Shown: one piece after another, positions 20,917-24,307 of the stretch
How positions within the stretch are numbered: position 1 is the stretch's first letter
Layout of the letters: each line of letters opens with the position of its first letter
Source: Nitrospirota bacterium
GTDB lineage: Bacteria; Nitrospirota; Thermodesulfovibrionia; Thermodesulfovibrionales; Magnetobacteriaceae
Reading direction: 5' to 3'
Length of the DNA stretch: 64,000 nt
Assembly: GCA_015233895.1 (NCBI GenBank)
Contig: JADFXG010000007.1
Coordinates: forward strand, 62,001 to 126,000
Translations under genes and position numbers: made by a program
Notes under the pieces: generated by a model
Told to the model about the DNA's origin: nothing
Database searches by the model: none
What the model saw: only the letters and a program-made list of their open reading frames with translations

Positions 20917-21071
20917 AATGACAGTAAGGACATGTTATTGTGATTTTGCTACATGGATTTTCGCTAAAAATTAGTAGTTCGATCGCAGATTTATGCAGCA
21001 TGTTCCATTCAAGTATATACATTATAATTATTACCAAAGAAATATACAATTTACTATAATAATACGGAACA

Positions 21072-21569
21072 TCATTCTTTTTTGGCTCTACCAATTAGGG
21101 TTTGACAACAAAAACCAGTCTCTAAAGAAATAATGACGAGTGAGAAAGTTATATCTTTTGTGCCAATTCGTTCAAGCATTAAGAATATAGTCACAACAGA
21201 CGACAAAAAAGGATATGAAAACTCATAAAAATCAAATTCTATTTTTGGTTTAACGAATTCACTATCCTTATACTTGATCCTAAGTTTTGATATTTTTTTT
21301 GAACGATTTTCTATCTGCTGAGTTAAATATCTTGTAAATATCCCAAACAATAAAAATACCAATAGGATTATTTCTTTGTATGGGCTTGCGTTGTACCATT
21401 CATTGTTACCCAAAGTATTTGGTTGTGTATCAGCATTAATTTTGAATAAAATAACGATAGATATTATTACTAAAAAAATGAAGCCGATTCTTAAATATTT
21501 TTTTATGTTTTTTCTCTGAATTAGCCATATCAGTACAGAAAGCTGTAGGCCTATAATTAAATAAAACAC
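21072..21569 (-). CDS. Hypothetical membrane protein downstream of the caspase gene
   Basis: 165 aa, GTG start with AGGAG eight bases upstream. Hydrophobic segments at about 2-17, 28-44, 66-82, 119-135 and 140-157 suggest four to five TM helices, with a basic cytosolic loop (about 86-110). I do not recognise the family. It starts 29 bp after the caspase-like gene on the same strand and shares its AT-rich base use, so the two may form a unit: protease plus membrane component. Confidence 0.65.
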   Translation of the reverse strand: MFYLIIGLQLSVLIWLIQRKNIKKYLRIGFIFLVIISIVILFKINADTQPNTLGNNEWYNASPYKEIILLVFLLFGIFTRYLTQQIENRSKKISKLRIKYKDSEFVKPKIEFDFYEFSYPFLSSVVTIFLMLERIGTKDITFSLVIISLETGFCCQTLIGRAKKE

Positions 21570-21598
21570 GACTCATTCTCCTAAAGCAATGTCACTGA

Positions 21599-23533
21599 TC
21601 ATTTCCTACTTCCTCGCAAGAATAATACTTTACCACCACCATAATCATCAAGTGTAGCATAATTTACTTGTTGATTTATATTGTGTTTTGCTGCTTCTCC
21701 AGCAACTTCATTTCTTACATAAATGGATAGTTCATCAAACTGTATAATACCATCTTCATTCAAATCTGCTTTTCCTTCTAAGCCACTAATAAGAGCTTTT
21801 GTAAAAACTCCACCACTTAACTCTAAGGCAAGTTGATCTTTGGTACCCGCTACCAATACATTCCTTGACGGTGATATTGTATCATTACGAATAATTGCAA
21901 GCTCTTTAAATTTTTTAAACTCTTGTACTTCTTCTTCGCTTTTATTACCTTCTAATCTGTTGGGTAAAGCTAATCCAGCCATACACGAATCAATTGTTAA
22001 CAAAACATGTTTGGCTTTAATAGATTCAAAATGCTTATCTGTTAAATCTTTCATGCGAAGGCTGGTTAATGCTGGTTTAGACTTGTCGTAATCATAAGTT
22101 ACAAGATAGCCGCTTTTTTCCTTAGCAGTACCTATTTTCCCTAAATCAATTCCATGCCCACCAAAATAGATAAAAAGTCTATCTGTTTTTTCATAAACTC
22201 CACCCACGTAAAATTTCTTTAAAATATTCTCTATATTGGCAACGGTAGCATTATCTTCAAAAAGTGTTATAATATTTCCATCTGGAAAACCCAACTCTTT
22301 TAAGGTGTTTTTTAATTTCTTTCCGTTACTCACCATAAAACCTAATTGTTTAAAACCAGTTCCTTTTCTTTTGAGAGTGTCATTTCTTCTCTCATAGTCA
22401 TCAACTGCAATTATTAGTGCATAGCTATTCTTATAGGGATTCTCAAAAATTTCAAGTTTTTTATTTTTACCCTTGTACCATAAAGACATTGCATAACCGG
22501 GTATTTGGTTAAGGCCATTTTTGAATATTGTTTCCTTTGGTGTTTGTTTCTCTGAATTAACAGAATAAGAAATTGTTGCATTGTCAATAGATTTCTTTTT
22601 TAAAGTGTTTCCATTTACATTTATCTCATCATATCCACCAAGTGAAGATATTTCCTGAAAATTTTCACCAAAATCAATATCAATAGTAAATATATCTTGT
22701 GGAGCTTTTATTAGATGTGCACGATGAATATTTTTTCCTGCAACTGTTGGATGTTGCTTAAATTTTGTGTCTTTAAGTATTTTACGATAGACATAATTAT
22801 GCGCCTCTTCCATAGAAATAAAGCCATCCCCATCTAGATCGTTCTCTGGTAGTTGTAATGCCTGTATTAGGTAATGAGTAAAACTATCTTTTGGATCGTC
22901 AGGTGTTGCTTCGTCTTGTTTAGATGCTGATAGTACAGAAACATTAGGATATTTAAGCATTAACTTACTAATTAGAGAATCACCTATATTACATCCATCA
23001 CCAATAAACATTAAATGACCATCTTTATTTATAGACAGCTCTACCATATCCATAAGTGTAATAGAATTATGAGTATTATATCCTGTTTTGTTATCATTAC
23101 TTATATATGTATCGTATGTTATCAAAAATAGCTCAGGCTCTTTTTCGTCATAAAGTGCATGACCAGACCAATAGATAATTAAATCGTCATTATCAGACAT
23201 TTTAGATTTAAAATCAGTAAGTACTTTTTTTATATTATTATATGTTGCGTTATCATCTTTTAATATTACATAATTATCTGGCTCTACTAATCCATTTGAT
23301 TTATTGCTTAATATCTTCGACATTTCTGTAGCATCATGAACGGCTCCGAAAAGCTTTTGTATAGAACGATAATTATCAATACCTATAAAAAGCGCATAGG
23401 TCGTTTTCTTTACAACAATCCCACAATCCGCACCATTAATTACAATAAGCAAAAAGAGTGTTGTTAATAAATAAAATATATAAACGACTCTAATATGATT
23501 TCCATATTTAAAATTATACAGTAGTGATTTCAT
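21599..23533 (-). CDS. Exported tandem caspase-like protease with two EF-hand loops
   Basis: 644 aa. A TM or signal segment (about 16-35) is followed by two caspase (C14) domains. Domain 1 has H125 (YWSGHA) and C181 (GDGCNIG); domain 2 has H460 (FGGHG) and C517 (IDSCMAG). Each domain is followed by a canonical EF-hand loop, D232-E243 (DLDGDGFISMEE) and D590-E601 (DLNEDGIIQFDE), suggesting calcium control of each protease unit. A beta-rich linker (about 280-360) separates the halves. Both His-Cys pairs look intact. Base use is more AT-rich than that of neighbours. The role, perhaps programmed death or defence, is inferred from the family only. Confidence 0.88.
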   Translation of the reverse strand: MKSLLYNFKYGNHIRVVYIFYLLTTLFLLIVINGADCGIVVKKTTYALFIGIDNYRSIQKLFGAVHDATEMSKILSNKSNGLVEPDNYVILKDDNATYNNIKKVLTDFKSKMSDNDDLIIYWSGHALYDEKEPELFLITYDTYISNDNKTGYNTHNSITLMDMVELSINKDGHLMFIGDGCNIGDSLISKLMLKYPNVSVLSASKQDEATPDDPKDSFTHYLIQALQLPENDLDGDGFISMEEAHNYVYRKILKDTKFKQHPTVAGKNIHRAHLIKAPQDIFTIDIDFGENFQEISSLGGYDEINVNGNTLKKKSIDNATISYSVNSEKQTPKETIFKNGLNQIPGYAMSLWYKGKNKKLEIFENPYKNSYALIIAVDDYERRNDTLKRKGTGFKQLGFMVSNGKKLKNTLKELGFPDGNIITLFEDNATVANIENILKKFYVGGVYEKTDRLFIYFGGHGIDLGKIGTAKEKSGYLVTYDYDKSKPALTSLRMKDLTDKHFESIKAKHVLLTIDSCMAGLALPNRLEGNKSEEEVQEFKKFKELAIIRNDTISPSRNVLVAGTKDQLALELSGGVFTKALISGLEGKADLNEDGIIQFDELSIYVRNEVAGEAAKHNINQQVNYATLDDYGGGKVLFLRGSRK

Positions 23534-23655
23534 ATCTCTATATTTAAAGATATATTAAAAAATTCAATATATAAAAGTAAATTCACCTTATGTTAGCTAA
23601 AGGGAAGAAGGACAAGGTGGAGCACTCTCTGACCATTTTGTCAGCGTTAGGTAGT

Positions 23656-23949
23656 TTAAACGGAACATGGAATTATGGCCTCAACAGCCTTAGAGTATAT
23701 CTTTTTAGCCTCCTCCAGATCATACATGATTTGTAGGTTTAACCAAAACTCCGGTGGAACATTAAAATATTTACCAAGCTTCAGAGCTGTTTCGGTTGTT
23801 ATATTTCTTTTACCTTTTATGATTTGACTCAAACGTGTTTGAGTTAATCCGGTTTCTTTGCAAAGTTTATATGCTGACACACCCATAGGCTTAAGAAACT
23901 CCTCTTTAAGTATCTCTCCGGGATGAATATTTTTTAATACAGTCATCAT
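23656..23949 (-). CDS. higA: HigA family antitoxin
   Basis: 97 aa. The opening HPGEILKEEFLKPMGVSAYKL and the helix-turn-helix TGLTQTRLSQIIKGKRNIT are diagnostic of the HigA (VapI) group, and the C-terminal FWLNLQIMYDLEEA segment completes it. An AGGAGG site precedes the ATG. It follows higB by 14 bp, the toxin-first order usual for higBA. It binds the toxin and represses its own promoter. Confidence 0.92.
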   Translation of the reverse strand: MMTVLKNIHPGEILKEEFLKPMGVSAYKLCKETGLTQTRLSQIIKGKRNITTETALKLGKYFNVPPEFWLNLQIMYDLEEAKKIYSKAVEAIIPCSV

Positions 23950-23963
23950 AATTACCTCCTATC

Positions 23964-24251
23964 TTAATGATAATCCAATATTTCTACGTCATAAGCATTA
24001 TTGTCAAGCCATCTGAAGCAAATCCGCCATTTCTCATTAATTCTTATGCTCCACTGACCTTCTCTGTCTCCTCTAAGCGCCTCCAATTTGTTTCCAGGTG
24101 GTACCGCTAAGGTCTCAATATTTGTGGAGGCAGCAATCATTCTCAATTTTCTCCTTGCAATTACATATAAATCGGAAGGAAGTCTGATTTTTTTGGAAAA
24201 AACTCCCTCCCAAATAAACCTTGCATCCTCATTTTTAAAGGATACTATCAT
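23964..24251 (-). CDS. higB: HigB/RelE-type toxin
   Basis: 95 aa of the RelE/ParE fold. The pattern L..L..PPGNKLEALRGDREGQWSIRINEKWRICF is the plasmid-killer/HigB signature with the Arg residues used in mRNA cleavage at the ribosome. It is first in the higB-higA pair, directly below a candidate promoter/operator. It appears intact. Confidence 0.9.
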   Translation of the reverse strand: MIVSFKNEDARFIWEGVFSKKIRLPSDLYVIARRKLRMIAASTNIETLAVPPGNKLEALRGDREGQWSIRINEKWRICFRWLDNNAYDVEILDYH

Positions 24252-24279
24252 TGATTAATACTAACATTATACGATAGTA
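24240..24279 (-). promoter_or_regulatory. Promoter and inverted-repeat operator of higBA
   Basis: ATACTATC (24242-24249) and GATAGTAT (24272-24279) face each other across the start region of higB, and a minus-strand TATAAT -10 lies between them. Autoregulation by the HigA-HigB complex would place its operator here. The -35 is weak. Confidence 0.45.
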
Positions 24280-24307
24280 TTTGTAAACAAAAATTGATTT
24301 AGGCATC

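Follow-up and report, generated by a model that had tools for sequence, protein, structure and literature searches.

A predicted exported double caspase from a Magnetobacteriaceae bacterium (Nitrospirota) with an EF-hand-type loop inside each caspase domain

Introduction

The window analysed here is a 64,000-nucleotide stretch of DNA from a Nitrospirota bacterium of the family Magnetobacteriaceae (GenBank assembly GCA_015233895.1, contig JADFXG010000007.1, positions 62,001 to 126,000). It contains a gene encoding two caspase domains in one chain, together with two EF-hand-type loops, which the initial annotation read as a built-in calcium sensor following each protease. Are these loops calcium sensors added to two proteases, or do they belong to the caspase fold itself? 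Prokaryotic orthocaspases were treated in a review as p10-less and calcium-independent (PMC5756287), and the calcium site of metacaspases is located in the p20 part (PMC5756287, PMC9622860). EF-hand motifs have been reported as an additional motif in seven archaeal prokaryotic-caspase proteins (PMC6426788); this is the sole relevant mention in the openly available literature that was searched.

Two caspase domains in one chain

The double caspase gene (21599..23533, reverse strand) begins with ATG and forms an open reading frame of 644 amino acids, in which searches with Pfam, NCBIfam and PADLOC gave caspase matches in two stretches. Both stretches matched PF00656 (Peptidase_C14; E 2.4e-28, 99.8 bits against a gathering threshold of 21.4), so that the domain search of both halves proposed earlier yielded a C14 match in each. 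The best NCBIfam match, again in two stretches, was NF047832 (EACC1-associated caspases; E 1.9e-31), although its 109.2 bits lie below the cut-off of 140 and the EACC1 domain was not found in the double caspase. Domain 1 spans aa 41-280 (22694..23413, reverse strand), and domain 2 with its flanks spans aa 363-644 (21602..22447, reverse strand). Among 59 aligned caspase domains, His125 and Cys181 of domain 1 and His460 and Cys517 of domain 2 fall in columns with invariant His and Cys, while the Asp of the D-x-C motif (D179, D515) and one Gln (Q260, Q621) also occupy invariant columns. Thus, the two domains with intact His-Cys pairs described in the initial annotation were recovered, and both possess the catalytic His and Cys of peptidase family C14, the caspase fold being seen in a structure model for domain 2 and judged by sequence only for domain 1. 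The two domains share 26% identity in an alignment over most of their length and are joined by about 80 residues.

The N-terminus carries a hydrophobic segment (aa 14-32; 23438..23494, reverse strand; Kyte-Doolittle 2.46 over 19 residues) with basic residues before it, so that the rest of the double caspase is predicted to lie outside the cytosol. The protein is likely exported through this segment, either anchored or secreted, in agreement with the membrane segment noted initially. Of 186 caspase ORFs, 118 have such a segment, among them seven of the eight from the same genome that were tested, suggesting that export itself is not unusual among these caspases. What is unusual is the presence of two complete caspase domains in one chain that is apparently exported.

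The genome encodes at least 11 caspase genes; the PF00656 profile search of this genome omitted the double caspase gene, which was found by hmmscan and a protein search. Among about 229 unique domains, no second ORF with two complete caspase domains was detected, one locus (L031) showing two partial matches, and a full-length relative was absent from 60 relatives. With the N-terminal half as query, no full-length relative or orthologue was found in 396 Nitrospirota genomes. Plasmids gave caspase matches at 24-32% identity, none of which spanned 80% of the double caspase; the protein was unmatched in phage records, and an IMG/VR scan with it returned no relative. A clade uniting domain 1 and domain 2 is compatible with the data (AU test, p 0.38), as are both an internal duplication and a fusion of two caspases.

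Both domains differ from the family at near-invariant neighbours of the active site (A126, N403 and A376), and one or both of them may hence be weak or inactive proteases. One alternative therefore holds that a single domain is an active protease, the other being a degenerating or regulatory partner whose loop is a relic of the fold. It is consistent with N403 in domain 2, where 98% of domains have Asp, and with three features of domain 1: A126 immediately following the catalytic His, a position at which 98% have Gly, the sequence DGCNIG in place of the usual DSCFSG, and a long branch on the tree. However, both domains retain the dyad together with the invariant Asp and Gln, and canonical ligands persist in both loops, which differs from the decay that would be expected; we regard this alternative as doubtful.

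In the reading that we prefer, with two complete caspase-fold domains, the substrates would be cut after Arg or Lys, because the Asp of D-x-C is a pocket acid in metacaspases. The N403 column aligns with a second pocket acid of metacaspases, and domain 1 would be the likelier protease for basic P1 residues, since domain 2 has Asn at this position. The two domains may pair with each other as an intramolecular pseudo-dimer.

Position and conservation of the EF-type loops

EF-type loop 1 (DLDGDGFISMEE; aa 232-243; 22805..22840, reverse strand) and EF-type loop 2 (DLNEDGIIQFDE; aa 590-601; 21731..21766, reverse strand) are canonical 12-residue EF-hand loops, with ligands at positions 1, 3, 5 and 12 and Gly at position 6. 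The Pfam EF-hand models match them weakly (best E 4e-4, 20.0 bits, below the gathering threshold of 25.4). In an alignment of both domains with the caspase-containing ORFs of the genome and its relatives, the two loops share the same columns, after an F-T-x-x-L-x-x-G-L helix and ahead of a Y-helix and then a Q-x-P strand. The initial positions of the loops proved exact, and the pattern is not due to chance: 14 of 79 non-redundant domains carry the loop at one column, against 0.4 matches anywhere per 79 shuffled domains.

The same column recurred as the sampling widened. It held 24 of the 26 EF-pattern matches among 131 caspase domains, and 65 of 68 among 259 bacterial caspase domains, a set that extends the earlier one by 80 loci of named genomes and six of plasmids. 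The loop is present in 35 of the 97 domains of the named-genome loci (Nitrospirota, Deltaproteobacteria, Nitrospinota, Elusimicrobia and others), a share that may be inflated because the query used to fetch this set carries the loop, and in 11 of 64 domains at 60% redundancy. A DxDxDG-type loop also occupies the slot in seven of eight caspase domains on the loci of the best phylum-wide matches of domain 1. Where the slot is free of gaps (124 domains), the conserved positions are 1 (D), 3 (N/D), 5 (D), 6 (G), 8 (I/V/L) and 12 (E/D), while positions 2, 4, 7, 9 and 11 are variable. Conservation of the EF ligand and turn positions, with the others free to vary, points to metal binding rather than chance, and the conservation in homologues on which the initial annotation had staked its claim is thus present in many of them.

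An AlphaFold2 model of domain 2, built with 58 homologues, reached a mean pLDDT of 86 and a pTM of 0.88, whereas a single-sequence model of the whole protein was unusable (pLDDT 34). In the domain 2 model, a helix (aa 576-588) leads into the loop and a second helix (aa 599-616) follows, forming a helix-loop-helix in which loop positions 7-9 make up a short beta piece; strands at aa 556-561 and 624-627 stand on either side. By its modelled secondary structure, the loop region has an EF-hand pattern inside the caspase fold, and the loop is placed within the p10-equivalent part, between two helices and ahead of the last core strand. The loops therefore do not follow the protease domains, as had been described, but lie inside them, as both the shared column and the model of domain 2 indicate. 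Nor is the loop a sensor added to each protease; in many bacterial caspases it belongs to the fold itself, as an optional element.

In two metacaspase-type C14 proteins (loci L044 and L056), an EF-like motif (DTDWDGGLIVDD / DMDWDGNFITDD) occurs not at this slot but at a clearly separate position within p20; it is probably the metacaspase-type acidic stretch.

Gain or loss of the loop among caspases

On a tree built without the loop columns, the presence of the loop requires 11 changes, of which at least five are forced by well-supported branches, and caspases with and without the loop stand side by side in the same clades. Such frequent gain or loss implies that the fold does not need the loop, which on this phylogeny appears to be an option of the fold and no marker of a single clade. 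Export was not significantly more frequent among domains that bear the loop (p 0.20). A region of a related genome (G051:C8:41153-58653) contains a cluster of at least six caspase matches in about 18 kb, the EF-type loop being present in some of them and absent from others.

Comparison with orthocaspases, metacaspases and EF-hand proteins

In a profile alignment to metacaspase-1 the acidic p20 stretch was absent, which agrees with the double caspase being an orthocaspase, a prokaryotic p20-type caspase in which neither the p10 of metacaspases nor their p20 calcium site is apparent. The double caspase resembles orthocaspases such as MaOC1 in its caspase fold, His-Cys dyad and D-x-C Asp and in lacking a canonical metacaspase p10, and many orthocaspases of the phylum are likewise exported and have the same loop. 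Unlike them, it has two complete domains per chain with an EF-type loop in each, and the described orthocaspases were reported to be calcium-independent (PMC5756287).

Compared with solved structures, the domain 2 model matched caspase-8, metacaspases 4 and 9, and MALT1 (Z 20-22, rmsd 2.5-3.0, about 200-220 residues), so that it shares its fold with type I and II metacaspases across the whole domain (Z about 21). However, the p20 calcium site belongs to the metacaspases, and the EF-type loop of the double caspase sits at another place, where yeast metacaspase has a shorter connection in the profile alignment. Neither the family profile nor either of the two domains contains the acidic stretch of the metacaspase p20 site, an absence that sets the protein apart from metacaspases and implies that any calcium site here differs from theirs. 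The analogy with calcium-dependent metacaspases, drawn in the initial annotation, is weakened accordingly.

With calmodulin-type EF-hand proteins the double caspase shares the canonical 12-residue loop and, in the model, the helix-loop-helix with its short beta piece. It differs from them in that the loops are single, unpaired and inside a caspase domain, with Pfam scores below gathering.

Possible role of calcium

Judging from their ligand pattern, both loops likely bind calcium, the role of which is probably structural: bound calcium would keep the p10 helices and the last strand in a competent state. Because the protein is predicted to reside outside the cytosol, and calcium tends to be abundant there, the sites are most probably occupied and structural, not a switch. 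We therefore consider it fairly probable that the gene encodes an exported orthocaspase-type protein of two complete caspase-fold domains, each with an internal EF-hand loop that forms a structural calcium site. The protein combines familiar parts in an unusual way: an exported chain, two caspase domains and a calcium-binding-type loop in each.

Alternatively, the loops could be true regulatory sensors, keeping the domains inactive until calcium rises, for example upon envelope damage or phage attack, and then allowing them to cleave a target. The canonical ligands at positions 1, 3, 5 and 12 in both loops and their conservation in homologues would fit such a switch, as would the proximity of the loop to the last core strand seen in the domain 2 model; metacaspases are calcium-dependent as well, though via another site (PMC5756287, PMC9622860). 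However, an exported protein would meet steady calcium, and loop-bearing and loop-free caspases are mixed in the same clades. Calcium sensors usually have paired EF-hands, whereas the loops here are single. A regulatory role of this kind is thus unlikely.

Genomic context of the double caspase gene

The double caspase gene lies in a low-GC segment between prmC and uvrC (20917..24307). A higB-like toxin gene (23964..24251, reverse strand; PF05015, 3.2e-18) and a higA-like antitoxin gene (23656..23949, reverse strand; HTH_3, 3.9e-11) are located upstream, higA 122 bp from the caspase gene. Downstream by 29 bp, as originally noted, is a gene for a hydrophobic membrane protein of 165 aa with about 3-4 hydrophobic segments (21072..21569, reverse strand). 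An AGGAG-like site lies ahead of this gene, and searches of plasmids and of 176 genomes from the order found no homologue of its product. The GC content is 31% for the caspase gene, 28.5% for the membrane-protein gene and 35-37% for higA and higB, against 41-44% for the flanking genes. In most other genomes of the family, G002 and eight more among them, prmC and uvrC abut or overlap within about 35 bp; they are arranged differently in G001 and G003, the two nearest genomes, which belong to the same genus. The best reading is that the four genes form a small insert of acquired DNA, at a place where the gene order changes within the genus. The promoter scan of the locus did not rise above shuffles, and the terminator and promoter scans gave no clear operon boundary.

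A second caspase gene of this genome (in the region L159:4376-8108, on contig C4), encoding a 976-aa exported protein, starts 132 bp after a Phd-VapC-like pair. About 18 toxin genes of three families are present in the 3.7 Mb genome, and the position of two of about 11 caspase genes directly after a toxin-antitoxin pair looks like more than chance, a count made after the first case had been seen. Elsewhere in the genome (L155:4031-7017, contig C1), a 225-aa caspase gene lies between two near-identical 170-aa genes whose products start with MQT[FI]ETDLDLTEIING; the caspase and 170-aa gene pair is possibly a mobile or duplicated unit, and a gene resembling the 170-aa genes occurs at L162:10204-10722.

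In Microcystis, the orthocaspase MaOC1 adjoins a toxin-antitoxin pair and cleaves its antitoxin (PMC7935541), but that the double caspase is likewise a module of higBA, in spite of this precedent, the same-strand pair upstream, the second case on contig C4 and the many toxin genes, is very improbable, as both neighbouring caspases begin with export segments that would keep them apart from an antitoxin in the cytosol, the count was post hoc, and acquired DNA commonly carries such pairs. Under the structural-calcium reading favoured above, the caspase gene would have arrived with higBA and the orphan membrane-protein gene in one low-GC insert, and this arrival makes a defence or conflict role of the locus plausible.

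Implications for bacterial caspases

The optional EF-type loop that many bacterial caspases carry at a fixed position of the fold is a more interesting lead than the partly supported sensor-per-protease reading of the double protein. We tentatively suggest that an EF-hand calcium site, built into the p10-equivalent part and different from the p20 site of metacaspases, is present in a large but phylogenetically scattered subset of bacterial caspases, and that many orthocaspases thought to be calcium-independent may thus be calcium-bound or calcium-controlled. The EF-type loop would offer a second, independent way for calcium to bind the caspase fold, and its fixed place in many orthocaspases makes a plain, assayable prediction against the calcium-independent view (PMC5756287). 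If this is true, the double caspase would be the case with two such calcium sites in one exported chain and, with two loops and two active sites per chain, a natural object on which to test it.
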